From Planctomycetota bacterium (GTDB taxonomy: Bacteria; Planctomycetota; Planctomycetia; Planctomycetales; Planctomycetaceae): a stretch of DNA of 64,000 nucleotides. The stretch's first letter is position 1, and each line of letters begins with the position of its first letter. A model generated the notes under the pieces. The model had not been told where the DNA came from. It searched no databases and saw nothing but the letters and a program-made list of their open reading frames with translations. Both the position numbers and the translations under genes were made by a program. This document shows, piece by piece, positions 19,034 through 43,346 of the stretch. The stretch lies in NCBI GenBank assembly GCA_030836185.1, contig JAURQH010000050.1, forward strand, positions 124,001 to 188,000, written 5' to 3'.

Positions 19034-21769
19034 GTGAAAAAACCCGCCATGAGAGATTGCTCCTTAAGCCTTTGTTGCCTCTTTCTTTTCACTGCGAACC
19101 TCGCTGCGGAAGAGAAGCCGTTCGCCCATTATCTGGATCACGTCAAACCGCTTCTGACTGAAAAGTGCATCGGTTGTCACGGCCCGGTCAAACAGGAATC
19201 GGGGTTGCGTCTCGATACGGGCAAGTTCATCAAAGTCGGTTCGGACTTCAATGCTGTCGTTAATTTGAAGAAACCTGACGAGAGCGAAATTCTGAAACGT
19301 GTGACAACGACTCACGCTGAAGAACGAATGCCGCCTGAAGGAGAAGGAGAACGGCTCAAGCCGGGTCAAATCAAAATTTTGTCCGACTGGATTGCTGCCG
19401 GAATGCCGGCTCCCGACGATGAAGTCGCGTTGGAAGACCCCCGTGATCACTGGGCCTATCAAACTATTGTCAGACCAGATCTCCCTGGTGGATCAGGTAA
19501 CCCCATTGATCGTTTTTTGACTGCCAAGCATCAAGCGGCAGATCTTACACCCTATCCACGGGCTGAAAAGTCAATTTTGTTGCGACGGGCGTACTTGGAC
19601 ATCATCGGACTCAATCCGAATCCCAGAGAGTTAAAGGATTTTCTGGCTGACGAATCTCCTGACGCATACGGGCAACTGATTGATAAATTGCTCAATGATC
19701 CTCGGCATGGCGAACGCTGGGCCCGCCATTGGATGGACGTTTGGCGATACAGCGACTGGAGTGGTTACAAGAATGCACTGCGTGGAAGCCAACGACATAT
19801 CTGGCATTGGCGAGACTGGATTGTCGAATCATTGAACCATGACAAAGGATACGACCGGATGGTGGTTGAAATGCTCGCGGGCGACGAACTCGCACCGGGA
19901 GATCCACAGACACTTCGCGCGACGGGGTTTCTGACTCGCAATTTCCATAACAGCAATCGTAATATTTGGCTCGACGCGACGGTCGAACACACCGCGAAAG
20001 CATTTCTCGGTATGACCGTCAATTGTGCCCGCTGCCACGATCATAAGTTCGATCCGATTCCCCAAACGGACTATTACGAACTCCGCGCGATCTTCGAGCC
20101 GTATCATGTCCGCACCGAGCGACTTCCCGGCCAACCGAACCTGTCTACCGACGGCATTTCTCGCGTTTATGATCAGAAACCAGACGAACCGACCTTCGTC
20201 TACATTCGCGGTAATGAAAAGGAACCGGACAAAGAGAACCCGGTTTCGCCCAACGTCCCCGATGTGATTGAGCTACCATTCTCGGTGACACAGATTGACC
20301 TTCCCCCCATCGCCTTCTTCCCGGCATTAGCAGAACACATCCAACAAGAGGACCTCGACCGAGCAAAGTCGGCCCTGAAAATAGCAGAACAGACTTATCA
20401 GAAAACCTTTGCAGACATCGATGAAAACAATATCGCCGCCGCAATAGAGAACATCCCCTCTGCTCCTTCATTACCAGAGAATCTCACCGAAGGACAGATT
20501 CGAGCCGAGTACCAAGTCGTCTCCGCGCGACTCGCACTGAGTTCTCTTCAGGCACGCTGGAAAGCCGATCACAACAAACATAACCGTACGGAACAGGATG
20601 ACTCATCAAAGTGGGCCGACTTGTCTAAGATTGCCGCCAACAACGAGCGACAATACAATTTCGCCGTCGCCCGTCAAGAACTGTTCGAGAAACGAACTGC
20701 TTACGAAAAGACGTTCACAACGAAACACAAAGACGCAGCAACTCGTCAATCGTCCATCGAGAAAGCCAGCAAAGAGTGGCAGGCTGCCGTCAAAAAATGG
20801 GAACAGACTCACACGGCTCTGAACAAGACCGACCACAAATACACATCTGTCGGCAAAGAGTATCCGAAGCAGAGCACCGGGCGACGCCTCGCTTTAGCGC
20901 GTTGGATCACGCACCCGAAAAACCCACTCACTGCCAGAGTTGCCGTCAATCACATCTGGCTGCGACATTTCGGAACACCGCTGGTTGAGAATGTTTTTGA
21001 CTTCGGCTTACGAAGTTCACGTCCCGAACATGCTGAACTGCTTGACTGGCTATCGGCAGAGCTTATGGAACACAACTGGAGTATGAGACACATCCACCAA
21101 CTGATCCTCACTTCGGACGCCTGGCAGCGTCAGTCTTCCTCAAACGATGCGGAGCTGATGTCTCACAATCTATCGATTGATGCCGACAACAAACTGTACT
21201 GGAAAGCCAACATTCAGCGGTTGGAAGCGGAAATCATTCGCGACAATGTGATGTATGTTGCGGGCAAACTCGACCTGACGCAAGGCGGCCCCGACATCGA
21301 TTATGTCAAAGGAGAAGAGGTTCTCAGACGCAGCCTCTATTTCCGACATGCTTATGAAAAACAGATGACCATGCTGACGCTGTTCGATGCAGCATCTCCT
21401 AACGAATGTTACCGTCGATCTGAAAGTATTCTGCCGCAACAGGCACTCGTGCTGGCTAACAGCGACCTCGCCATTCGCATGTCGATTGAACTGGCCAAAC
21501 AACTCGACGCACAAATGGTCAACGACGAAGAGTTTCTCACCTTCTTGTTTTTGCACACACTCACACGCAAACCAACCCACCAGGAAACGGACGCTTGTTT
21601 GAAATTTCTGATAGCTCAGGAGCAACGACTGAGCGACACCTCTCAATTGACATCGTTCGAAACTGAAGCGGTCAAGAAAACCGTCCTTCCAGACGATCCC
21701 AAACTTCGGGCGCGGGCCAATCTCGCTCATGTTCTCATGAACCACAACGATTTCATCACGGTTCGATAA
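19034..21769 (+). CDS. Planctomycete cytochrome c (PSD1-type) DUF1549/DUF1553 protein
   Basis: 911 residues from a GTG at 19034; ATG at 19049 is an alternative. A signal peptide ([16 protein letters not shown]) precedes a cytochrome-c-like domain with CIGCH (C45-H49) and the MPPEGE distal Met region (about 99). DUF1549 follows ([20 protein letters not shown] onward) with a second CxxCH, C331-A-R-C-H335 in [14 protein letters not shown] helical, charged spacer (about 435-600) leads to DUF1553 ([20 protein letters not shown] to the end). The two CxxCH motifs suggest covalent heme. It is followed after 16 bases by the DUF1501 gene, the standard planctomycete pair, exported and probably cell-envelope bound. 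The biochemical role of the pair is not established. Confidence 0.92.
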
Positions 21770-27458: not shown

Positions 27459-28893
27459 TATCAATACTCAAGGAGAGTCCGTCTCTCGGCGGTATTTTCT
27501 CGGTCGTTGTACCGGAATCAGTCTGGGCGCAATGTCTCTCGGACTACTGGAACAGGAAAAACTGCGTGCAGATGCGGTTGGTCTGCCCGAACTACCCCAC
27601 TTCGCTCCCAAAGCAAAACGGGTGATCTTCCTCACTCAATCAGGAGGACCATCACAGATCGAATTGTTCGATCATAAACCGGGATTGATGAAATGGGCTG
27701 GCAAAGAATTACCGGCGAGCGTTCGTCGTGGTCAAAGGCTGACCACCATGACTGCTGGTAAAGCACAACTTATCATGCCCGCTCGAACAAAGTTCACACG
27801 CTGCGGTCAGAGCGGAGCGACCCTCGGCGAATGGATGCCCCATCTGCAAACCGTGGCTGATGATCTTTGTTTCATCAAATCGATGGAGACTGACCAGATC
27901 AATCACGCCCCCGCAATGACCAAGTTTCTCACGGGGCATCAACTTCCCGGTCGACCCAGCGTCGGCGGCTGGACAAGTTACGGTCTCGGCAGCGATAATC
28001 GAAATTTGCCCGATTACCTAGTACTCATCTCAAAAATGAAGCGTCCCAGCGATCAACCTTTGTACGATCATTATTGGGGTAGCGGATTTCTTCCGTCCAA
28101 ATATCAAGGCGTAAAACTTCGCAATGCCAAAGAACCGGTTTTGTATCTCCGCGATCCGGAGGGGATGCCAAGACAGGTGCGACGCAACATGCTTGATGGC
28201 ATCTCTGACCTCAATGAAATTCGCTTCGATAAAACCGGAGATCCCGAAATCGCCACGCGAATCAGCCAATATGAAATGGCTTGGCGAATGCAATCGAGTA
28301 TACCGGATTTGAATGATCTGTCTGACGAACCGGAATCGACGTTCGAACTCTACGGAGCTGATTCACGTCGCCCAGGTACATATGCTGCTAATTGTGTACA
28401 GGCTCGACGACTGGTCGAACGTGGTGTCCGTTTCGTGCAACTGTTTCATCCCGACTGGGATCATCACAGCCGCTTGAGTTCCTGGTGTACGGCTCGCTGC
28501 CGAGATACCGATCAAGCGAGTGCGGCACTGGTGAAGGATTTGAAACAGCGCGGTTTACTTGACGACACATTGGTGATCTGGGGTGGAGAATTCGGACGGG
28601 GTGTTGCGGGCCAAGGCAAATGGGATTCCCCTGAAGGGGGACGCGATCATCACCCACGTTGCTTCACAATGTGGATGGCGGGAGGCGGCGTGAAGCCGGG
28701 TATGACATACGGCAAGACAGATGATTTCAGCTACAATGTCGCCGAAAACCCGGTTCACGTGAATGATCTTCACGCCACGATCCTGCACCTGCTGGGAATC
28801 GATCACGAGCGATTCACGCACCGCTATCAGGGACTCGACTTCCGGTTAACGGGTGTGGAACAATCTCGCGTGGTCAAAGAAATCATCGCATAA
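27451..28893 (+). CDS. DUF1501 protein with Tat signal peptide
   Basis: 480 residues. The start ATG lies inside the last codons of the upstream gene (8-base overlap). Tat motif SRR (R13-R14) in VSRRYFLGRCTGISLGAMSLG, matching the SRRxFLK consensus well. The body shows [51 protein letters not shown] and GRDHHPRCFTMWMAGGGVKPG. It is a diverged paralogue of the 21786 gene: same architecture, different subgroup by wording. Exported, function not established. Confidence 0.92.
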   Translation: MNNINTQGESVSRRYFLGRCTGISLGAMSLGLLEQEKLRADAVGLPELPHFAPKAKRVIFLTQSGGPSQIELFDHKPGLMKWAGKELPASVRRGQRLTTMTAGKAQLIMPARTKFTRCGQSGATLGEWMPHLQTVADDLCFIKSMETDQINHAPAMTKFLTGHQLPGRPSVGGWTSYGLGSDNRNLPDYLVLISKMKRPSDQPLYDHYWGSGFLPSKYQGVKLRNAKEPVLYLRDPEGMPRQVRRNMLDGISDLNEIRFDKTGDPEIATRISQYEMAWRMQSSIPDLNDLSDEPESTFELYGADSRRPGTYAANCVQARRLVERGVRFVQLFHPDWDHHSRLSSWCTARCRDTDQASAALVKDLKQRGLLDDTLVIWGGEFGRGVAGQGKWDSPEGGRDHHPRCFTMWMAGGGVKPGMTYGKTDDFSYNVAENPVHVNDLHATILHLLGIDHERFTHRYQGLDFRLTGVEQSRVVKEIIA

Positions 28894-29754: not shown

Positions 29755-30042
29755 AATCTCGATCCGGATTCGTTTCTCCGGCTCGTACGTAGGGGAATGA
29801 GGTGGATTCCAGACAGAAAAACGACACGCAGAACCGAAAATAACGTGAGGTCGTTCAAGAAATTGAGAGTTGAATTCTCAATCTGACCGGAATACTGCTC
29901 AATCATAGCGATCAACGGAACCAAATGCGGTCAGCAAATGCATACCGACTGGAGAATAGCCCCCCTCCAACATTAGTTTTGAGGGTTATTATAGAAAAAG
30001 GGAAGAGAGTGAGGTGATCACTTTCTTCCCTTTCACATGGAG

Positions 30043-30115
30043 TGGTCAGACCCGGACTCGAACCGGGGACACCTGCCTTTTCAGGGCAGTGCTCTACCAA
30101 CTGAGCTATCTGACC
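30043..30115 (-). tRNA. tRNA-Phe (GAA)
   Basis: 73 bases that fold as a full cloverleaf on the minus strand: acceptor GGTCAGA/TCTGACC, D-arm with AGCTCAGTTGGTAGAGC, anticodon stem CTGCC/GGCAG around loop CTGAAAA giving anticodon GAA, and T-arm with GGTTCGAGTCC. The discriminator is A and the CCA end is not encoded. It lies between the polysaccharide locus and the methyltransferase gene, a typical integration-prone position, though no att repeat was seen. Confidence 0.97.
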
Positions 30116-30868: not shown

Positions 30869-32005
30869 TTACGACTCTAAAATCGACTCATAGGCTTGTT
30901 TGGTACGCTCCGCACATCGCCTCCAGGTAAATTCCCGTTCGACCAACTGTTGACCGTTCACTCCCGTGGTGTGACATTTTTCGGGAGACAGCAAGAGTGT
31001 TCTCAATTGTTCGGCGATATGATCCGGTTCGAGACGACACTCCAAGCCGGCGTTTGCCTCAACGATATTGGAACAAATATTAACACGATTGCTGAGAACA
31101 ACCGGAACACCTAGCCGAAGCGCATCGACCACGACCAAGGCAAAATTCTCCTGGTACGAGGAGAGTGAAAAAACATCTCCCGCTGCCATCGCCTGCCACT
31201 TCAGTCGTCCTACAAGATTTCCTGTCATCGTGACGCAATCACTGATTTCTTCTTTGAGAATCAACTCTTTGAGAAATTGTTCGTAGGATGGCTCGCCTGA
31301 TCCAACGAGTAAGAGTTGCACATCGGGGACGGATTTCTTGAGAACTCGTATGGCAGGCATGAGTAGATCGAGTCCTTTCTTCTCATGCAGCCGACTCAGA
31401 AAGACGATGGTGGGTTTATTTTTCAAATCAGGGTGTGTTTCGTAGAACTCCTGCCGTAGTGTTTCACGATTATCGGGCGGGGAATCGGCTCCCAATGGGG
31501 TGATATAAGCGGGTGGAAGAGATGATACTGATTTTCTGGCAAGACGTGCTTCTTCCTCATGCGTGCACAGGAGTCCGGCAGACGATCTCAGAATCGGAAA
31601 TTCAACCAATGTCCCATACATTTTTTTCTTGAGCCGCTTTCTCTGCATTGAGTTGGGGTCCAGCATGCCGTGAGGCATCACAACATAAGGAGTATCAGTG
31701 GCCCGACAGACTGTCCGCACTGATCGGCTTGAGTCTGTCCACAAGGTGTGAAGATTAACGAGATCATAGGCGTCGATCTGCTGCTTCAAAGCACTCAACA
31801 GAGCGGGGCTTTTTGCGTAAGGAGACTGCTTTGTGATCGTCTGAATGTCGATGCGATCTTTTGACTTCCAGGTTTCTTTCCAACGGTGGTCATTCTGACT
31901 GGCGCAGAGATTTGTTGTCAGAATATTGGATTCGACTCCTAGAGCATTCAGTTCATGGCACACACGATCAACGACAACGGGTGGTCCGCCACCTTTCGGA
32001 TGCAT
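30869..32005 (-). CDS. GT4 glycosyltransferase, probably frameshifted at its 5' end
   Basis: The intact frame from the ATG at 32005 gives 378 residues starting MHPKGGGPPVVVDRVCHELN. GT4 features are clear (PTIVFLSRLHEKKGLDLLMPA, LLLVGSGEPSY, SLSSYQENFALVVVDALRLG). The usual first beta strand of the fold is missing from this frame. In the neighbouring frame just upstream, a TTG at 32031 reads KILHVIP, and one extra base near 32008 would join it to YMHPKGGGPPVVV, the family's normal start. The TTG lies 10 bases from the upstream stop with an AAGG sequence before it. A one-base loss is therefore likely; if so the protein made from 32005 lacks about 10 residues of its N-terminal Rossmann strand. 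Confidence 0.8.
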   Translation of the reverse strand: MHPKGGGPPVVVDRVCHELNALGVESNILTTNLCASQNDHRWKETWKSKDRIDIQTITKQSPYAKSPALLSALKQQIDAYDLVNLHTLWTDSSRSVRTVCRATDTPYVVMPHGMLDPNSMQRKRLKKKMYGTLVEFPILRSSAGLLCTHEEEARLARKSVSSLPPAYITPLGADSPPDNRETLRQEFYETHPDLKNKPTIVFLSRLHEKKGLDLLMPAIRVLKKSVPDVQLLLVGSGEPSYEQFLKELILKEEISDCVTMTGNLVGRLKWQAMAAGDVFSLSSYQENFALVVVDALRLGVPVVLSNRVNICSNIVEANAGLECRLEPDHIAEQLRTLLLSPEKCHTTGVNGQQLVEREFTWRRCAERTKQAYESILES

Positions 32006-32040
32006 ATAGGGATGACGTGAAGAATTTTCAAAAGGAAACC

Positions 32041-33189
32041 TTAGGAAGCAGAAGGAGCTGTCTTGATGGTCGGCTGCGTAAGATTCGATGCGAGTTCTTT
32101 CCAGAGTTCAGCTCCCCGTTCGGGAGTCCAGCGTTCGGCCTCTTGTCGTGATGCCAGCGACATCCGTTTTCTCTTCTCGGGATTATTCATCAATTTCTGA
32201 AGTTTTTCGGCAAGAGCTTTCCAATCTTCAACGGGAAATTGATAACCATTCACTCCGTCTTGAATCAAGTCATAGCCAGCCCCGACTTGATCACTGCAAA
32301 CCAGGGGCAAGCCGCTTGCCAAAGCTTGATTGACGACAACTCCCCAACCATCGTGACGAGAAGGAAGTACGAAAATATCGGCAGTAGCAAACAGATCTGG
32401 CAATGCGTCGACGGGCTGAAATCCTGTGAACTCGACCGCGTCTTGTTCGGCCTCACTCAAGAGTGATTTCAAAGCAGGTTCATCGGGGCCAGTTCCGACG
32501 AGACGAAGTTTGATATTTTGGTTTTGTGCGTAGAGTGACTGGAACGCCTGAAATAAAGTGTCGAGTCTTTTGCGATGAATGAGTTGTCCGCAATAGAGGA
32601 TTGTGACTGGAGAGTTGACAGTCGATTCTTCCGAAACTTGTCGTCTCTCCGCCGCAGCCATGAATTGATCAAGCTGACAGAGATAGGGAATATTCTCCAC
32701 CGGAAGATCTCTTATTAGCAATTTCCGATATTTCTCAACGGCAAGTTGTCCAATCCCGACAATGGCATCGGCTGATTGCAAAACGGGACGCATTGCCTGA
32801 TCTCGTAACCACTGTCCCAACAAACCCCGCCTTTTCAGTCCCGGTCTCTCCCCCCAAAACACCCAGCGTTTGCGATTCTTGATTAGCCAACGAAAAGCGA
32901 CCTGGTCGGTGAGGCTCGAATATCCTTGGACAATATAGAGGTCTGCTTCAGCCTGTTCGAGGTCTGTGATGATTCCCGAGTTGTAGCTCCATCGGCGACG
33001 TGGAGGAGATGCCGAATCTGGACCGATCAGCTTTGCATAGTGTGGTAACTCACGATCTCCCCAAAGCGTATCCTGAACCACCATCGCTTCATATAGAACC
33101 TTGATCTCCATTTCAGATGTCGTATTCAAGGCTGTAAAAATATCTTCCATGTAAGGAGATGGCATGATGCAGAGAAAGCAAAGCTTCAT
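32041..33189 (-). CDS. GT4 glycosyltransferase
   Basis: 382 residues from the ATG at 33189 (MKLCFLCIMPSPYMEDIFTA); a GTG three codons upstream is possible. The C-terminal GT-B half has VTILYCGQLIHRKRLDTLF, IKLRLVGTGPDEP, ATADIFVLPSRHDGWGVVVNQALASG and VCSDQVGAGYDLIQDGVNGYQ, the nucleotide-sugar site with its conserved glutamine in place of the more usual EAMAxG. It starts one base after the stop of the Wzy-like gene. The sugar transferred is unknown. Confidence 0.88.
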   Translation of the reverse strand: MKLCFLCIMPSPYMEDIFTALNTTSEMEIKVLYEAMVVQDTLWGDRELPHYAKLIGPDSASPPRRRWSYNSGIITDLEQAEADLYIVQGYSSLTDQVAFRWLIKNRKRWVFWGERPGLKRRGLLGQWLRDQAMRPVLQSADAIVGIGQLAVEKYRKLLIRDLPVENIPYLCQLDQFMAAAERRQVSEESTVNSPVTILYCGQLIHRKRLDTLFQAFQSLYAQNQNIKLRLVGTGPDEPALKSLLSEAEQDAVEFTGFQPVDALPDLFATADIFVLPSRHDGWGVVVNQALASGLPLVCSDQVGAGYDLIQDGVNGYQFPVEDWKALAEKLQKLMNNPEKRKRMSLASRQEAERWTPERGAELWKELASNLTQPTIKTAPSAS

Positions 33190-33190
33190 C

Positions 33191-34582
33191 TCAGGCACTC
33201 CGCTTCGTCACGCGAGGTTGCGGAGGAGGATTTTGCGGTGGTGTCGTCTGATTCGAGAGTATTACGGTTTGTTTTTTTGGGGCTCCCAACCCAAAGAAGA
33301 CCATGAGCAGGTAAATGGCAATCAAACCGTACAAAGCACTCATAGAAAATGAACGACCTGATAAAAACAGAATGACTAATCCCTCAGCATGAACCATGAA
33401 CACGACAAATGAATGCCGGTGCGCAAGTCGCATGTGGTCCCACGATTTAACAATGAATCCACCCATCGCACTTAGAAATACGACACCTATCAAACCGAAG
33501 TTCCAATACATCTCGCCAATAAGTCCTGGTGAACGCGTCAAGTAAGCCTCGCCAGTCTCTTTATTGACTTCCCCACGAGCAATGGCCAACATCAATCCCG
33601 CATCGCTCACTGGTTTATTCTTCCATACGAATCGGGGAATCGGGTTCACGACTTGTGTCGCGTATGTTCGCCCAAGCTCATAATCCAAGGTGCCCCCAAT
33701 CTGTTCGCTGATGTAGAGAAGCTCTCGAAACATTTCAAAACCGACGTACTTGGCCTCTGTGGCGGCTTCGAAACGAAACTCTCCCGAATTTCTTGTGACC
33801 ACCACGGCAGCCGACCAATAGTATCCCGCGATCACCATGAAAGGGACTCCGATTAAAACCGCCATTTTCTTGAGATCATCTCTCAGCAAGAAATAAACTC
33901 CACCGGCGACTGGTAGTGCAATGCCGAAAAAGCTGGCACGCGATCCACTATTCAGGGCTTTCAGCAACATCCACATGATGAACTTACCCGAGGCCGCTTT
34001 TTGTCCAAAGCTGGAATCTTTGCGGAGCACAATAATGATGGCGATGGGAAGGACCGCGTTGAAAAACAAGCGGAGTTCCAAAAAGGCATCACGAAATCCA
34101 CCGTATCGCCCACGACTCAAGCGGGATGACCACCGTTTCTGGAATTCAAACACACCATCCAAAAACAAAGTCAGGTCAAATTTCCCAATGATCAAAATAG
34201 GAAGCGAGCCAATAATGAACCCTGTTGCGAAAATTCGCCATTGCCAATTCAAATTATCGATGACGGTCAAACGATGGCCGAAGCCGTCAAACATTTTGAG
34301 GTTGCGAGACTCATAAGCAATCAGAAAACTGATTGCTGAGAGCATCACACAGAGCAGTCCATAGTCGTATTTATTCTGGGTTAAGCCCACCACTTCCCCA
34401 TCGGTGGCATTCGTGATGGTCACTGCTTCGAGCAAATACCAAACCATAATGCTGCCCAGAACCACATTGCGCCCAGTCACCACACGACGCAAATGTTTCT
34501 GGATATGCGCTAGAATCATGATCGCAACGACACCCAAAGCGATCTCCCCCAAAACTGTTGAAATTTCAGCGAATCCTGTCAC
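33191..34582 (-). CDS. Wzy-like polysaccharide polymerase, polytopic membrane protein
   Basis: 463 residues from a GTG at 34582. That start is chosen because it overlaps the previous stop as GTGA and has AGGAGG seven bases upstream; the frame is open to 34765 but the extra part lies inside the previous gene. About 10-11 membrane helices, with a large central loop bearing GTLDYELGRTYATQVVNPIPRFVWKNKP, and a following GLIGEMYWNFGLIGVVFLSAMGGF, the type of loop seen in O-antigen/exopolysaccharide polymerases. It would join repeat units on the outer face of the inner membrane. No Wzx flippase is seen in the window. Confidence 0.8.
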   Translation of the reverse strand: MTGFAEISTVLGEIALGVVAIMILAHIQKHLRRVVTGRNVVLGSIMVWYLLEAVTITNATDGEVVGLTQNKYDYGLLCVMLSAISFLIAYESRNLKMFDGFGHRLTVIDNLNWQWRIFATGFIIGSLPILIIGKFDLTLFLDGVFEFQKRWSSRLSRGRYGGFRDAFLELRLFFNAVLPIAIIIVLRKDSSFGQKAASGKFIMWMLLKALNSGSRASFFGIALPVAGGVYFLLRDDLKKMAVLIGVPFMVIAGYYWSAAVVVTRNSGEFRFEAATEAKYVGFEMFRELLYISEQIGGTLDYELGRTYATQVVNPIPRFVWKNKPVSDAGLMLAIARGEVNKETGEAYLTRSPGLIGEMYWNFGLIGVVFLSAMGGFIVKSWDHMRLAHRHSFVVFMVHAEGLVILFLSGRSFSMSALYGLIAIYLLMVFFGLGAPKKQTVILSNQTTPPQNPPPQPRVTKRSA

Positions 34583-35898
34583 GAGAGTTCCTCCTGTGAT
34601 GAGACGGGAGTCTTTCGCGTCAGTTGTTCTGTATTGATCTCTAGCCGAGGGGGAACTGTCATCAGATCCGCAATTTCTCTGACAATGGCTTCCAGGCGTT
34701 CTTCGTGTCGTTCCCAGGAGTATTCCCGGGCACGAGCCATCGCGGATTTTGACATCGAGCGACAAAGTTCCCGGTTCTCTGCCATCGTCTTTAAACGATG
34801 AGAAAGACCATCGACATCATCGGGTTCAAGAACGTAACCATCGACTCCATCCCGGATGATTTCGGGGGCAGCACTGTGAGTGCTCGAAATGACTGGCAAA
34901 CCGGTGGCCATCGCTTCTGGAATAACCAATCCGAATCCTTCCAGAACTGAAGGCAGGACCATAACATGCTGATCGTGCATCACAGCGACCAAGTCAGTCT
35001 GGTCGACTCGACCCAAATAGTTGTAATAGCCTTCGTAAGCGTGTAAAGCCTCTAGGTCGGCGGCAGCCGGACCAGCAATGGTCAACTGCACTAATTCGGT
35101 CCCCAGTCGCTTGACCGCATCGAGAAGATACTTGATGCCTTTGCGTTGTCCGACACCACCGACAAATAGAATCTTTAATTTTGGTTCGGAAAACTTCCGT
35201 TCAATTGGTACAAATCGATCAAGTTGAGCCCCCAATGGCAATAGCCGAATTTTCTCATCAGGCACACCGACATCCAAGAGCGATTCTCTCGTATAAGGGC
35301 TCGCAACCACACAAAGATCAGCCGCATGCGGTTCTGCTTCCAACCGTTCGCGATACCATTGTGGGAAATAGTAATTACTGATTGTATCGGCCCACTCTGG
35401 ATGTCGTTCTGCCTCTTGTTGGAGTACACGAATCGCCATCGGTGAATGAACGGTTGCCAGTTCAAGAACAGCGAATTTACCAGCAGCCCGTGCCGCTTTC
35501 AAACTTTCAAGACAAGCCCCCTGAAACCCCCAGAACACATCACCATGACTGGCCCAGTGACGGGCAACCCACCGGTCAAATTTTGCATCACGGTGGAACA
35601 CATGATTTTCCACTGTGTCGCGTGACGCACCCACTCGGCGAGAAAGAAGTTCCGGGAGTTCGAAAGACCAGCCTCGAATCACTTTATCGGGATTCAGGTC
35701 CTGGTGGTAACGACGTTTCAGACCGCGATCAATTCGTGAAATATATCGTACCAGACAGTCAGGCCAGCGAGTCGGCTTGTAATAGCCACTGGTCAAAAAA
35801 CGATCCAGACACCCCAAGTTCTGTAGCGCACGTGCATGCCAATAAGCGTGTTGCTTACCGGAGTGGCTAACCAGAATTTGAGGTAAGGGATGAATCAT
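34579..35898 (-). CDS. GT4 glycosyltransferase
   Basis: 439 residues. N-terminal half ILVSHSGKQHAYWHARALQNLG and TIYN-type acceptor region (AVLELATVHSPMAIRVLQQE), C-terminal half LKILFVGGVGQRKGIKYLLD, VMVLPSVLEGFGLVIPEAMATG, and SAAPEIIRDGVDGYVLEPDD, which is the full GT-B donor site with the EAMATG glutamate. Its stop overlaps the GTG of the polymerase gene, so the two are coupled. Transcribed after the GT2 gene with a gap of 77 bases. Confidence 0.9.
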   Translation of the reverse strand: MIHPLPQILVSHSGKQHAYWHARALQNLGCLDRFLTSGYYKPTRWPDCLVRYISRIDRGLKRRYHQDLNPDKVIRGWSFELPELLSRRVGASRDTVENHVFHRDAKFDRWVARHWASHGDVFWGFQGACLESLKAARAAGKFAVLELATVHSPMAIRVLQQEAERHPEWADTISNYYFPQWYRERLEAEPHAADLCVVASPYTRESLLDVGVPDEKIRLLPLGAQLDRFVPIERKFSEPKLKILFVGGVGQRKGIKYLLDAVKRLGTELVQLTIAGPAAADLEALHAYEGYYNYLGRVDQTDLVAVMHDQHVMVLPSVLEGFGLVIPEAMATGLPVISSTHSAAPEIIRDGVDGYVLEPDDVDGLSHRLKTMAENRELCRSMSKSAMARAREYSWERHEERLEAIVREIADLMTVPPRLEINTEQLTRKTPVSSQEELS

Positions 35899-35975
35899 CT
35901 GTTTCCGTAACGTCCTATTTTAGCGTTTCACGTGTATTTCGTTGAAAAATCACAAGTTGAATAATCACATTCAGT

Positions 35976-36935
35976 TCACTGTGTTCTTAACCCCATCGAT
36001 AACCGGCGTTTCCATGACGCCACTCGCTCCGAGACTCCAAAGCCAAGGCAACGGTAAGTCCAACGATAGATCCAAGGGAATGAAGCAGCCGCTGGCGGAG
36101 AGAATCCGGGTGACTTTTGACGGACTTGGTCGGCAAGTTCGTAAGCATATTCACGATCATGATTGATGGCGATTCGGGCGCATTCCAATCGCGTCTGGGC
36201 AATCGTGCGACGATATGTCGATGACATTTTGTCGTTGTTCTCCAGCCATTCCTCAAAGGTCGCAACCAAACTCATGCGGGTCTTCAAAGAATTCAAGGGA
36301 TCACGATGGCAGACGGTCTCAGTGCTCCAAATACGATAAAAGGCCCCTCCGGTTGCGTATTCAAATTTTTTACCGGCAGTCAACAGCCTCAGCATTGATT
36401 CATTTTCCTGGCAGACAAGCTGGTCGTCTTTCCAGCCAACAACTGCTCGCAAGACAGACGATTTCCAGAGCAGTCCACCCGTTTGTGGCAATCCCCAGCG
36501 AAGATAGAGGTTCCACGGGTCTTCATTGGCAGGAATCTCATCCAGAAATATTTCGACTTCACCACAGGGCAAAGTTCTTTCAATCGTCACCGGACCAAAT
36601 AAGACATCCGCATCACTCCCCTGCTCTAATGTTTTGACATGCCCTTCCACCTTGGTTGGTTCCAGATAGTCATCCGCATCGAGGTACTGAATCCAATCTC
36701 CCGTCGCCAATTTCAAAAGTCGGTTACGTGTGACGTTACCGCCTCGATTCGGCCCGGTTTCCACACGAATCGAATTTCCAAATGAACGAAGAATTTCAAG
36801 CGTACCATCGGTAGAACCATCATCGACACAGATCACTTCACAACGACCATATGTCTGATTCAAGGCTGACTCCACCGCCTGACGGACCCATCGTTCTGCG
36901 TTGTAACAGGGAATCAAAATGCTCACGTCGATCAT
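35976..36935 (-). CDS. GT2 family glycosyltransferase
   Basis: 319 residues. The GT-A fold starts at once: VSILIPCYNAERWVRQAVES, VICVDDGSTDGTLEIL (Asp pair of the donor site) and IQYLDADDYLEPTKVEGHV (DxD-like LDADD). The start ATG overlaps the stop of the broken glycosyltransferase upstream as ATGA (36932-36935), so its translation would normally depend on ribosomes ending there. If that upstream frame is cut short by its internal TAA codons, expression of this gene may be reduced. Confidence 0.9.
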   Translation of the reverse strand: MIDVSILIPCYNAERWVRQAVESALNQTYGRCEVICVDDGSTDGTLEILRSFGNSIRVETGPNRGGNVTRNRLLKLATGDWIQYLDADDYLEPTKVEGHVKTLEQGSDADVLFGPVTIERTLPCGEVEIFLDEIPANEDPWNLYLRWGLPQTGGLLWKSSVLRAVVGWKDDQLVCQENESMLRLLTAGKKFEYATGGAFYRIWSTETVCHRDPLNSLKTRMSLVATFEEWLENNDKMSSTYRRTIAQTRLECARIAINHDREYAYELADQVRQKSPGFSPPAAASFPWIYRWTYRCLGFGVSERVASWKRRLSMGLRTQ

Positions 36936-37864
36936 CGGGAGACCTCAACCAATTCAGGATGAGGTGCCGTCTGGATATTTTTGAGAAAACCTTTCTGAAC
37001 AAGATGTCGCATGCCTTCCGCGTACATCCGATTTCGAATCGCTCCGACATAATGCTTCAGAGGTTTCCCGGAAAGACCTTCTTCTAAGATGACATCATAG
37101 GGTTCAGAGAATGGCTGGCAGCCGTAGCTGGAACTACACAAGCAAAACAGGGTCTGTTCGATGAGCCAAAAATGCCCTTAGAGCAAGTTCGAAGAGAGAC
37201 ATCGTTCGATCTCGGTGAGTTGCAATGAATCCATCTGCAAGACACAAACCCCGGAATTGAATCGGGACGCAACATCCAAACCCAATCCTTCGGCAAGTTC
37301 GTCGCGTGGAGAAGTATAGGCATCGGCAACATCACGATTAAAGCGATTCGTCGTTTCTTCGTCGTTCAATGCGTCAATCAGTTCGACGGGTTGTGAGAAT
37401 GTCAAAACATCGGAATCGATCAGCAACACTCGTGACGATTGAGCATAATGAATCAGATTAAACAGTTTGATCGAAAGATTATTCTCTGAACGTAGCTTAT
37501 GACAGGCAGGATAGTCGGCTAAGGAGTCGAGAACCTCGACATCAGACTGCTCCCGTTTGATCAAGCGAACGCCGACAAAATGCGTACGGAGAATCTCACA
37601 TATTTCAGAAGTCAACGAACCATCATCATGAATACATAGAGCGGGGCGTGTATCACTAAAGTGGTAAAACGATTTTAAAGCCCACAAAAGATTCAGCCAG
37701 TCTTCCTGTGATGTCAGAGCGTGAATCTCTTATTCCGAATTTTGGGGCAGCAACAGCGAAGGAGTTTGCAAAATCCGAGAGCGCACAATTTCCCGATACC
37801 AAGAGGCCATCAAGCCCCCCTCGAAGAGTCTTCTCAACCGGTACAGGAGAACTCCCGGACGCAC
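36932..37864 (-). pseudogene. Glycosyltransferase-like gene interrupted by two in-frame TAA codons
   Basis: One reading frame of 311 codons runs from a GTG at 37864 (AAAGG nine bases upstream) to the TGA at 36932, but with TAA at 37730-37732 (codon 45) and at 37178-37180 (codon 229). Across both stops the protein reads on: QNSE*EIHALTSQEDW and SSNLL*GHFWLIEQ, then TLFCLCSSSYGCQPFSEPYD and PLKHYVGAIRNRMYAEGM. The middle part has WALKSFYHFSDTRPALCIHD and VLLIDSDVLTF, a DxD-like site of a GT8/GT-A-type transferase. No frameshift is needed, so the two stops are point changes such as CAA, AAA or GAA to TAA. Probably a recent pseudogene. The 169-residue middle fragment could still be made from an internal TTG at 37687. 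Confidence 0.82.
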
Positions 37865-37916
37865 GTCTGTTTACCTTTCGTCTTCAGTGAACACTGATGA
37901 TGAATTTCCTCAAGAC

Positions 37917-38951
37917 TTACCCAACCGGGTCTTTCCCGATCATTAAATTATGCTTTTCCCGTTCCGCTTCCTCCAGATCGGATTCCACCATTAACTCGAC
38001 CAATTCCTTGAAACTGGTCCGCGGTTTCCAACCAAGTTCCTGTTCTGCCTTCGAGTAATCACCCTGCAGGAGATCAACTTCAGCAGGACGATAGTAACGG
38101 GGATCGATTTCGACAAAATCATTCCAGTCGAGGTCGAGCATTTCAAAAGTGTGATTGAGAAATTCGCGAATGCTGTGAGTTTCATTCGTGGCCACCACAT
38201 AATCAGCGGACGTCTCGGCTTGCATCATCAACCACATCGCTTCCACGTAATCTTTGGCGTATCCCCAATCCCGTTTGGAATCGATGTTGCCCAAGTACAA
38301 TTTGTCTTGTAGCCCTAATTTAATACGGGCGGCCGCTCGCGTAATTTTGCGAGTCACAAATGTCTCACCGCGACGAGGCGATTCGTGATTAAACAGAATG
38401 CCATTGCTCACGAACAAATCATACGCTTCACGATAATTGATACATTGATGGTAGGCGTACACTTTCGCACATGCGTAAGGACTTCGTGGACGAAACGGAG
38501 TCAACTCCGTTTGTGGAGTCTCGACGACTTTCCCGTACATTTCGCTCGATGAAGCCTGATAAACTCGGACCGGCTGCTCGCGACTCAACATGCGAACCGA
38601 TTCGAGAATCCGTAAAAGTCCATTTCCGGTGACATCCAAAGTGTAGAGCGGATTATCGAACGACACTCGAACGTGACTCTGAGCACCCAAGTTGTAAATT
38701 TCATCGGGTTTCACTGTCATGATGATGTTCGAGAGTGATTGACTATCCGAGAGATCGCCATGATGCAGAAACAACCGAGCGTCCGAATCGTGCGGATCCT
38801 GATAGAGATGATCGATACGTGACGTATTAAACGTACTCGACCGGCGGACAATCCCATGAACTTCGTATCCTTTTTCAAGGAGAAGTTCTGCCAGGTACGA
38901 ACCGTCCTGACCCGTAACTCCTGTGATTAATGCTTTTCTCAATTCAGACAT
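37917..38951 (-). CDS. gmd: GDP-mannose 4,6-dehydratase
   Basis: 344 residues. It turns GDP-D-mannose into GDP-4-keto-6-deoxy-D-mannose, the first step to GDP-L-fucose. NADP-binding [14 protein letters not shown] (11-24), the ASSSEMYG catalytic Ser/Glu region (about 133-140) and the Y159-x-x-x-K163 pair ([13 protein letters not shown]) are all present, along with [27 protein letters not shown] before the ATG is a fair Shine-Dalgarno. It follows fcl with a gap of 16 bases. Confidence 0.95.
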
Positions 38952-38967
38952 CTCATATCCTAACGTG

Positions 38968-39993
<1,026 letters not shown>

Positions 39994-40029
39994 TCAAAGT
40001 CTATCAAATGGATACACCATTGTGACACT

Positions 40030-41337
40030 TCATTCAGTCGAGACTGGAATCTCTACATCATTTCGAGGATTCGCACTCTGGGTGGCTATTAAGATGTGAG
40101 GGTTTTGCCTGTTAGGCAAAACCCTCAAAAGGTTTTTGAACAACCCTACACTCACTTTACGATCATACTTGGTTTCCGCCAGTTGGCGTCCACGCTCTCC
40201 CGAGTCTTGCAACGATTGACGATCAGCCGCCAAATCCCGCAAAACCTGTTCAATCTGATCTGACTCAAATCGTGGAAGATTGACCCCAACACGATTCTCA
40301 ACGATGATGCGAGCCAATTCAGAAGTTTCAGGAGCGATGGAAAGCACGGCTGTACCACTCGCGAGAATTCCATAAAGTTTGCTGGGCATGAGACACTCAA
40401 GAGCCTCTTTGCGAATCGGCAACAAGTGCAAATCGGCAGCCGACAAACTTTCGGCAAGCCGTTCTCGAGGCTGGTACGGCAGAAACGTCACATCATCCAG
40501 TCCTTCGGCCTGCTCTATCAGTGCCTCGCGAGATGCTCCTTCGCCGACAAAAACAAAATGCAAGTCATCCAGGTCTTCTAACTTCTTGGCCGCGTCAACC
40601 ACGATCGACAAATCCTGGGACAGTCCCAGATTTCCTAAATACATCACAAGAAACAGATTCTCGGACGCAAAATTGTTTTCTACTCGCCAAGGGTTTGCCT
40701 CTTTCACAGGAACAACTTTCGTTGTGTCGATCCAGTTGGGAATGATGTGAATCGGCACTGCATCGAGAGTTCCCCATCCAGAAATTGTTTGTTTCATATC
40801 TTCACTGAGGACAACAATGCAATCAGCACGACGATAGCACCAACGTAAAAGACGGCGCAACAGCCGAATGAAAATTCCATTTCTGGCTTTGCCGACAGCA
40901 ATGGCAATATCGGGATAAATATCTTGCAGATAAAAGACCAGCTTGCAGCGTTTTCGAAACCGAACCCAAATGGCCAAGAATGGCAGCAGAAATGGATCGG
41001 TTTCGCAGACAACAACATCGGGTTTCGGTAAACGTGAAACACGCCAGAACGCATACCACACAAACGAAAGGAAATTGAACAGTTTTCCGATCAAAGAGCG
41101 TTTGGGAAACTGACTGTTTCTGACTCGAGAGATATGAACTCCCTGATGTTGCTCGTCTCCCGACTGCACGAACTGATGTTGTCCAAGATTCTGATTCGGT
41201 TGACCACAAAGAACCGACACGTCGAAGTCTTCAGAGAGATCCTCACACAACTCCGTTAACAATTGACCGGTCGCTTCCGCGTCGGGCCAATAGGAGCGGT
41301 TCAAAAACAGGATACGCGAGGGCGTTTCCGAGGACAT
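40030..41337 (-). CDS. GT4 glycosyltransferase (WcaI-like)
   Basis: 435 residues from the ATG at 41337 (MSSETPSRILFLNRSYWPDA); the frame is open to 41457. WcaI-type N-terminus with SYWPDAEATGQLLTELCEDL and VSVLCGQPNQ, a middle YLQDIYPDIAIAVG, and a donor site VMYLGNLGLSQDLSIVVDAA, FVGEGASREAL, LHLLPIRKEALECLMPSKLYGI. The last 25 residues (from PNRQNP) are encoded across a perfect 13-base inverted repeat and look unlike a normal family ending, so the C-terminus may be an extension. It is 97 bases upstream of fcl. Confidence 0.88.
   Translation of the reverse strand: MSSETPSRILFLNRSYWPDAEATGQLLTELCEDLSEDFDVSVLCGQPNQNLGQHQFVQSGDEQHQGVHISRVRNSQFPKRSLIGKLFNFLSFVWYAFWRVSRLPKPDVVVCETDPFLLPFLAIWVRFRKRCKLVFYLQDIYPDIAIAVGKARNGIFIRLLRRLLRWCYRRADCIVVLSEDMKQTISGWGTLDAVPIHIIPNWIDTTKVVPVKEANPWRVENNFASENLFLVMYLGNLGLSQDLSIVVDAAKKLEDLDDLHFVFVGEGASREALIEQAEGLDDVTFLPYQPRERLAESLSAADLHLLPIRKEALECLMPSKLYGILASGTAVLSIAPETSELARIIVENRVGVNLPRFESDQIEQVLRDLAADRQSLQDSGERGRQLAETKYDRKVSVGLFKNLLRVLPNRQNPHILIATQSANPRNDVEIPVSTE
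40097..40127. repeat. Perfect 13-base hairpin inside the 3' end of a glycosyltransferase gene
   Basis: tgagggttttgcc at 40097-40109 and ggcaaaaccctca at 40115-40127 are exact reverse complements with a 5-base loop. It lies within the last 33 codons of the minus-strand GT4 gene. On the plus strand it is followed by aaaagg, on the minus strand by catctt, so a standard U-tract terminator is absent on both. Confidence 0.65.
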
Positions 41338-41395
41338 TTGCGAACGACCGTTGAAGGAATGATGATTCGAGTGGCTTGGGAAAATCCGAAGACCA

Positions 41396-42004
41396 TCACG
41401 ATGAGTGAGAAAGTTGGGCGACCACGGGAGATTCACCAACCTCGGGAACATCCACATGGTCCGCTTCAGCCTGAGGCATATGTTCGTCGATCAGCTCAAT
41501 CAATTGAAGCTCGAAAGGCTTGAGCCCGGTAATCAGTTCTCCCATCCATTCACAGGCGGATTCAGAGCGACATGCCCCCATGAGACTCACTTTTCCGATC
41601 GGAATCTCTCTGAGGTGGAGAGGGATATCACAACTCCAGCATTCCTGAATATCGGGAGGGCTCTTTCGCTCCCATTTCGCATGAAACTCTTCGTTAATCG
41701 TGTGCAGGTTGAGACTCAAACGTACTTGGCTCAGATCAAAACGCTCGGCAAATTGTGTGAGAGTCAACCATAGCTGTTCCCACTCTTTGGTCCCCTGCAA
41801 CCGCATGAATTCCTGATTTCCTTGATGTCTCTTCTCACGAGTGAAAGACATGACAAATTTTTTGATTTTGGAAATTAACAGGAGCGATTCGACGTGTCCA
41901 AAAACTCGGGTCACAATCAGCATTCCAAAGACAGCAACAACCGATCCGAAGGCCAGCATTTCGTTCTTCTGATAGACACTCACAAACGCACCAAGAACGG
42001 TCAA
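41396..42004 (-). CDS. Possible C-terminal remnant of a WecA/MraY-type priming glycosyl-phosphate transferase
   Basis: The frame is open from the TAG at 42041-42043; the listed start is a TTG with no good Shine-Dalgarno. Two membrane helices come first (RLFGSLCTLTVLGAFVSVY partly before the TTG, and MLAFGSVVAVFGMLIVTRVFG), followed by a soluble alpha/beta part (LTLTQFAERFDLSQVRLSLN, CWSCDIPLHLREIPIGKVSL). This order resembles the last two membrane helices and cytoplasmic tail of the large planctomycete WecA-like transferases, with the catalytic N-terminal 300-plus residues missing; only 30 bases separate the stop from the next gene. If that is right it is a gene remnant. If not, it is a small membrane protein of unknown role. 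Confidence 0.5.
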   Translation of the reverse strand: MTVLGAFVSVYQKNEMLAFGSVVAVFGMLIVTRVFGHVESLLLISKIKKFVMSFTREKRHQGNQEFMRLQGTKEWEQLWLTLTQFAERFDLSQVRLSLNLHTINEEFHAKWERKSPPDIQECWSCDIPLHLREIPIGKVSLMGACRSESACEWMGELITGLKPFELQLIELIDEHMPQAEADHVDVPEVGESPVVAQLSHSS

Positions 42005-42071: not shown

Positions 42072-43346
42072 TTATCGAGCGAAATGATCGATGATATTCT
42101 TAAGATTGCCATCCGATTCCAGCAGTAATGGATCTGGACCAGAAACAATCTCCAACTCTTCACGTCCCTCGAATTCGGGAAGGTAAGCTTCCGAAACCAG
42201 CAACTCAGACAGATGCAGCGTGTCCGAAATCTGAATCAGGCGTAGCTGTTCTGCACTTTTAAGCCCTACCGTACTACATGCTGCTTCCAGAACCTCGACA
42301 TCTGTGGCAAAAGAGATCGGCAGCATGGCGGCTTCAGGATGGCCCCCCGTGATACAATTCACGGCAGTCACTTGCTGATCGATTTGTTCGATTGTGCGTT
42401 TGTTGGTGAATTCGGCAATGCCGATGCCAGTCCCATTCCCATGAGTTTCTTCTGTAAGTCCCCGCACAAAAATTCGATTCACCCGAACGGAATCTCCCTC
42501 GCGCGCTTCATGATCGTTATATTTTCGACCAATGATGTTCGTGTCGAGTCCGGTGCCACTAATATTTTTCCCAATCCGGTCAACAATCAGCACATCAATC
42601 TCAGTAAACGGTAATCGAGGTAGCCACTCTTTCGATTGTCGGCACAACTCGCATTCCTGTTCGTAAAAGTCTGTAGGAGCGACCGCCCGAACCAAGCCAG
42701 TCTCATCGTAAGCATTTTCGACGATGGCCAGCCCCGCCACTACCGAGCATTTCTGGAGTACCTGTTCGGCAACCGCACGAATAATCTCGTCGAAGGAATA
42801 ATTGAAGATGGCTTGATGATAGATCTTCGCTCCGGCATGTTTCCCCAAGCCGATCAACATCATCTTGTGGAGACCTGATTCGATGTCTCCAATGAACCTT
42901 GTGTGCGCTTTAATCCGATTGCAGACCAGAACATGATCGGCCTCAAAAGCGTTTTTGTCGAAATGAACGGGGATCCCCTGCGGCGTCTCGGCCACAACAA
43001 CCGTTTCCATGCTCGAACGAATCTCGCAGCCGAGGAATTCTTCCGTTAATCCGTAACCTTCGACGATCTGCCGTTGTCCTTCTGCTGTTCCACCGCCGTG
43101 ACTTCCCATCGCGGGAATAATCATCGGGACCGCTCCCAGAGATTTCAGAAAATCGACCGTGGTCTTGATAATGGTGGTAATGTTCGCAATGCCGCGGCTG
43201 CCGACCGTGACGGCAACCGTTTGTCCCGGTTGAATCTGTTTCTCCAACTGGAGAGACTCGAGTTCAACGAGAACCGTCTCTTCGATGTTTTCGACAACAG
43301 AGCGATCAAAACGCTGTCGAACTTTTAACATTCGTGGAAATTCCAT
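42072..43346 (-). CDS. Lactate racemase-like (LarA N-terminal domain, DUF2088) protein
   Basis: 424 residues. The LarA-like features are VAVTVGSRGIANITTIIKTT, IPAMGSHGGGTAEGQRQIVE with the usual GSHGG, IPVHFDKNAFEADHVLVCNR and the catalytic-His region RIKAHTRFIGDIESGLHKMM. True LarA uses a pincer-nickel cofactor on a lysine; whether this homologue carries it cannot be decided from sequence. Planctomycete members often lie near sugar genes and are of unknown substrate. It is the first gene upstream of the polysaccharide locus but may not belong to it. Confidence 0.82.
   Translation of the reverse strand: MEFPRMLKVRQRFDRSVVENIEETVLVELESLQLEKQIQPGQTVAVTVGSRGIANITTIIKTTVDFLKSLGAVPMIIPAMGSHGGGTAEGQRQIVEGYGLTEEFLGCEIRSSMETVVVAETPQGIPVHFDKNAFEADHVLVCNRIKAHTRFIGDIESGLHKMMLIGLGKHAGAKIYHQAIFNYSFDEIIRAVAEQVLQKCSVVAGLAIVENAYDETGLVRAVAPTDFYEQECELCRQSKEWLPRLPFTEIDVLIVDRIGKNISGTGLDTNIIGRKYNDHEAREGDSVRVNRIFVRGLTEETHGNGTGIGIAEFTNKRTIEQIDQQVTAVNCITGGHPEAAMLPISFATDVEVLEAACSTVGLKSAEQLRLIQISDTLHLSELLVSEAYLPEFEGREELEIVSGPDPLLLESDGNLKNIIDHFAR

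Follow-up and report, generated by a model that had tools for sequence, protein, structure and literature searches.

The Gene and Its Two Stop Codons

Is a glycosyltransferase gene that carries two in-frame stop codons and no frameshift still a working gene, or has it been lost, and how recently? This question is raised by a polysaccharide cluster in the draft genome of a bacterium of the Planctomycetaceae (5,160,223 bases in 107 contigs, 97.94% complete). The window, by which the whole analysed stretch of 64,000 nucleotides is meant, comprises positions 124001–188000 of a contig of 254,113 bases. The gene, its two internal stops, and the gene that follows it are located there as given below.

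36932..37864, minus strand: GT8-like glycosyltransferase gene, very probably a pseudogene; GTG to TGA, 311 codons, two in-frame TAA; orthologue in the sister genome open
37730..37732, minus strand: first in-frame TAA, codon 45; immediately precedes the invariant residues E46-I47-H48 and the first strand (46–51) of a low-confidence fold model
37178..37180, minus strand: second in-frame TAA, codon 229; immediately precedes the invariant residues G230, W233, and I235-E236-Q237-T238
35976..36935, minus strand: family 2 glycosyltransferase, the next gene; open; its ATG overlaps the TGA of the GT8-like gene, and its own GAGG lies 7 bases upstream of the ATG

The sequence-only reading had described a single minus-strand frame of 311 codons with a GTG start, a Shine–Dalgarno sequence, a terminal TGA, and TAA at codons 45 and 229. 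All of these elements were found, with AAAGG located 9 bases upstream of the GTG, and the proposed ATGA overlap between the TGA of this gene and the ATG of the next one (36935) was confirmed. The translation had also been taken to continue as one protein across both stops. This view was borne out by a genome of the same genus, called the sister here (G002), in which the locus lies on a contig of 8,997 bases (C137, locus L007). The sister gene region is identical over 3,930 bases to JAQWSQ010000149.1, a record of a Planctomycetaceae metagenome-assembled genome. Its orthologue is open over the full length with 89% amino acid identity, and the nucleotide alignment of 4,632 bp (window 36460–41091) spans the whole gene without a gap, so the joined frame cannot be ascribed to chance.

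TAA is an ordinary, working terminator in this region, since it ends 9 of the 28 long open reading frames in the window. This count is the only part that was used of a codon-usage scan for stops within coding-like frames. The scan itself did not discriminate because the codon bias is weak; the two stops ranked 4th and 5th of 198, and their neighbours in the ranking were gene ends and shadows on the opposite strand.

Homologues without the Stops

When 99 genomes, including its own, were searched with the read-through frame, five matched: its own genome with the two TAA codons, and the sister, G054, G051, and G071 without a stop inside the match. A search with a six-row alignment as the query covered 392 genomes of the phylum, an even draw from a larger group. 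Six of them matched, namely its own, again with two TAA, and five stop-free genomes (G124, G242, G276, G280, and G320). A scan of a second genome collection returned four loci, the sister once more and L008, L009, and L010, whose frames are open over 295, 299, and 306 residues, respectively. Besides the sister, 11 loci (L004–L006, L008–L010, and L012–L016) are stop-free inside the match, where several homologues are distant (26–46% identity) and some matches span only part of the query. These 11 loci are mutually distinct; no pair shares a nucleotide match at 80% identity. A second copy of the gene in its own genome (97.94% complete) was not found at E ≤ 0.001.

The stop positions are not shared with relatives, as sense codons occupy both places in the sister and in four further aligned homologues. 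The equivalent of codon 45 is Tyr in the sister and Cys in L004, L008, L009, and L010. At codon 229, Gln is found in the sister, and Ile, Val, His, and Ile are found in the same four loci. The earlier expectation of Gln, Lys, or Glu at both places therefore held for residue 229 of the sister and failed for its residue 45 and for the four further homologues. Both residues are variable in the family, and the columns next to them (E46-I47-H48; G230, W233, and I235-E236-Q237-T238) are invariant over the six aligned rows.

Unitary pseudogenes made by nonsense substitutions are a general class in bacteria. What marks such a pseudogene, an in-frame stop within a frame that is open in relatives, is present here as two TAA codons against an open frame in the sister and stop-free matches in the 11 loci. 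The gene also shares with this class that it is single-copy, has an intact orthologue in the sister, and is recognisable along its full length. It has no distinctive trait within this class; each lesion is a TAA and there is no indel, which fits a young age.

A GT8-like Transferase

The best Pfam match of the gene is PF01501 (glycosyl transferase family 8), with E = 1.1e-4 for the joined frame and E = 3.7e-5 for the middle piece. The corresponding scores of 22.3 and 23.9 bits are below the curated cut-off of 24.3, and for this reason the product is named GT8-like and not GT8. A DxD-type motif (D150-S151-D152), as in the family, is invariant in the six aligned rows. Support for a GT-A fold comes from a low-confidence model. 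This model of the sister protein was built from a four-row alignment and is weak (mean pLDDT 50.3). Its best fold matches, the mannosyltransferase Ktr4p and glycogenin, were obtained at E 0.005–0.01, with none at E ≤ 0.001, and can serve as a pointer only. The NCBIfam search with the sister protein gave no match; of the sequence searches against solved structures, one gave two unrelated matches at E of about 1 and another gave none. Taken from these weak family and fold matches, the enzyme appears to have been a GT8-like transferase.

The Surrounding Cluster and the Age of the Probable Loss

Besides a GDP-mannose dehydratase and an epimerase, the cluster around the gene includes several transferases and a Wzy-like polymerase, whose Wzy matches fall below the cut-offs. 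The genes on the other side of the GT8-like gene are as follows.

37917..38951, minus strand: GDP-mannose 4,6-dehydratase, located before the GT8-like gene; open; dN/dS control
38968..39981, minus strand: NAD-dependent epimerase, by context presumably GDP-fucose synthase-like; open; dN/dS control
40030..41457, minus strand: family 4 glycosyltransferase; open frame in the window; the sister copy lacks its N-terminal part; dN/dS control
41396..42004, minus strand: WecA/MraY-type sugar-phosphate transferase, C-terminal remnant of 202 residues; second broken gene of the locus

The remnant at 41396–42004 has 17 matches in other genomes, and all of them lie in frames of at least 504 residues. The one that was examined, L074 with 543 residues, has a WecA match at E = 7e-42, which stays under the curated cut-off. 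At the other end of the region, a tRNA-Phe is located at 30042–30115, beyond an acyltransferase gene (30228). Farther out, the stretch at about 28180–28890 has dozens of counterparts in both congeners (about 64–84% nucleotide identity) and is thus a member of a large gene family.

The dN/dS of the GT8-like gene between the window and the sister is 0.102 (Nei–Gojobori; bootstrap 0.065–0.152). Two transferases of the cluster, used as controls, gave 0.098 and 0.090; the other two controls, the epimerase and the dehydratase, were lower, at 0.079 and 0.041. In addition, the gene at 42072 had a value of 0.066 and a transferase tail one of 0.107, while two pieces of the acyltransferase gene (30228) reached 0.198 and 0.264. 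Since the value of the broken gene is like that of the neighbouring glycosyltransferases, the loss must be recent, and the neutral part makes up at most about 12–14% of the window branch. With the two transferases of the cluster as the yardstick, the neutral fraction f of this branch has a median of 0.013, with 0.116 at 95% and 0.135 at 97.5%. The probability of two or more neutral nonsense changes, calculated with a transition weight chosen by the analyst, is 0.007 at f = 0.01, 0.05 at 0.03, 0.35 at 0.10, and 0.50 at 0.135. Two such changes are unlikely at the median f of 0.013 (P about 0.01), which counts against the loss, and are plausible within the upper-bound neutral time. Because these probabilities rise with f, the upper part of its range is more likely.

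The changes at sites conserved among outgroups (six for the GT8-like gene and ten per control gene) were also split between the window and sister lineages. At a 50% majority, the split was 7:6 for the gene versus 6:16 for three pooled controls (Fisher two-sided p = 0.16). It was 6:4 versus 6:13 at 60% (p = 0.24) and 4:3 versus 3:3 at 80% (p = 1.0). The excess of window-lineage changes at conserved sites is non-significant, dN/dS is normal, and no significant decay is seen beyond the two stops. On the scale of the species split, the loss of the gene is recent. It is highly probable that a GT8-like transferase gene has here become a unitary pseudogene of young age, through two nonsense substitutions that arose once the window and sister species had separated.

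Could the Gene Still Be Intact?

A normal dN/dS and a non-significant excess of changes are equally expected if the gene still works or if the stops are errors, and this argues against an immediate verdict of gene loss. One or both stops might be sequencing or consensus errors, arising for example from mixed strains, in which case the gene would be intact. The assembly is a draft in 107 contigs, and pseudogenes that are artefacts of draft assemblies are reported as common (PMC11017572); together with the normal dN/dS, this speaks for an error. Against it, both lesions are substitutions and sit in a single gene. Across this genome, 151 of 152 sulfatase and ABC matches are stop-free, and the remaining genes of the cluster that were set against the sister have open frames in the window. 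Of the 109 sulfatase-domain matches, which came from scoring 150 of 174 first-look candidates and include cases where a gene is counted as two half matches, a single one holds an internal stop; the 43 ABC-domain matches hold none. Stops are thus not scattered through the assembly, and scattered base errors are unlikely to explain them here. The single stop-bearing sulfatase match has a TAG and is located at 20223–21314 of contig C50. Two stops in one gene fit a gene that is free to gather them, and an assembly error is given a small chance.

It may also be asked whether both stops are read through at a low rate, so that the enzyme is still made in a down-regulated manner. The two TAA codons would then act as a standing brake that holds the enzyme at a very low level, with selection keeping the surrounding coding sequence. 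Belinky et al. (2021, PMC7918605) interpret a low dN/dS near in-frame stops that species share as pointing to read-through, which would mostly be short-lived, and the dN/dS of 0.10 found here resembles their cases, as do the in-frame stops with a pairwise dN/dS well below 1. In that work a stop had to recur at the same place in at least two species, whereas here both stops are known from one genome and the sister is without them. Since they are known from a single genome and the bulk of the divergence predates them, dN/dS mainly reflects the time before they arose and cannot tell read-through from a very young pseudogene. A value well below 1 is to be expected of the latter and is no proof of read-through.

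Other observations also speak against read-through. Two TAA codons in succession would multiply the loss, and the 12 other loci have no stop inside the match. A tRNA with an anticodon for TAA, TAG, or TGA was not found among the 47 tRNA matches typed by ARAGORN; these came from 150 of 206 scored first-look candidates, so that a very divergent tRNA could be missed among the other 56. The sequence-only reading had considered read-through the less likely course, and the typed tRNAs and the sense codons of relatives at both places agree with it. Both low-rate read-through and its use as a standing brake are very improbable, to the same degree.

Some tRNAs of this genome deserve a separate description. 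An odd tRNA of 76 bases without a long variable arm (L113 188–263, on contig C34, 2400–2850) was considered as a suppressor and rejected, as its anticodon UAA reads UUA and not a stop. A tRNA-Leu of 87 bases elsewhere in the genome (L119) also has the anticodon UAA. On contig C7, between tRNA-Glu and tRNA-Lys, there is a tRNA of 74 bases with a low score of 39.5 bits, typed as Leu CAG (L123 313–386).

The least credible proposal is a split gene whose separate pieces, made from internal starts, assemble into a working enzyme: a frame of 169 codons with the DSD motif does begin at a TTG between the stops and one of 69 codons follows the second stop, but the TTG of the middle frame is codon 60, already past the first strand (46–51) of the weak model, no ribosome-binding site is seen at a normal distance upstream of it, and no homologue found is split.

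One Lesion among Several in the Genus

The probable loss of the GT8-like gene is not the only difference at this locus. In the sister, about 5.2 kb of the window (31223–36459) are missing, and where the two aligned pieces meet they share 7 bases. The next transferase departs there from the window sequence after residue 167 (L007 6088–7550). At L007 1297–2918, the sister has a Wzy_C (O-antigen ligase) piece in two broken frames, followed by the family 4 transferase without its N-terminal part. These lesions of the sister (the gap, the broken Wzy_C piece, and the truncated transferase) add to the two stops of the window, as does the WecA-type remnant in the window itself.

In a third congener (G001, L039 1–2936), the GDP-mannose dehydratase stands alone between the homologue of the 42072 gene and tRNA-Phe. 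It lies 256 bases behind the former, and the tRNA-Phe follows 327 bases on. The transferases and the polymerase are absent there, and a search of this genome for a homologue of the GT8-like gene gave no match. The three congeners, as compared at the sequence level, each differ at the locus: one by two stops, one by the 5.2-kb loss, and one by the apparent absence of all but one gene, which may have been lost or never present. The two stops are one lesion among several.

Consequences and Meaning

If two nonsense substitutions hit the GT8-like gene after the split from the sister species, translation from the GTG would yield a peptide of 44 residues, which stops short of the catalytic fold. Initiation behind the first stop would give a product that breaks off ahead of the conserved EQT stretch. 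As the first stop precedes strand 46–51 of the model and the second precedes the EQT columns, presumably no piece between the stops holds the whole catalytic unit. The next transferase gene is open and has its own ribosome-binding site; thus, the cluster may still make its polysaccharide, minus the sugar once added by the GT8-like enzyme. We infer in this way the loss of activity, the lost sugar, and the continued expression of the following genes.

The proposal that two point-mutation stops recently abolished the function of the gene is supported by the open sister frame, the neighbour-like dN/dS, the lack of a second copy at E ≤ 0.001, and the lack of a stop-reading tRNA among those typed. 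Its placement in the polysaccharide locus also stands, refined by the further lesions in the genus. Of the suggested coupling to the next gene by ATGA, the overlap is real, but the next gene has its own GAGG and an open frame, so the loss need not silence the neighbour.

The open-access papers that were searched contained no literature on this gene. The finding is ordinary for fast-changing polysaccharide clusters. Alone, it is of little weight, being a single, probably dead gene in a variable cluster for surface sugars. Seen alongside the congeners, it gives a modest example of how a planctomycete polysaccharide locus can differ, by apparent losses, from species to species within a genus.
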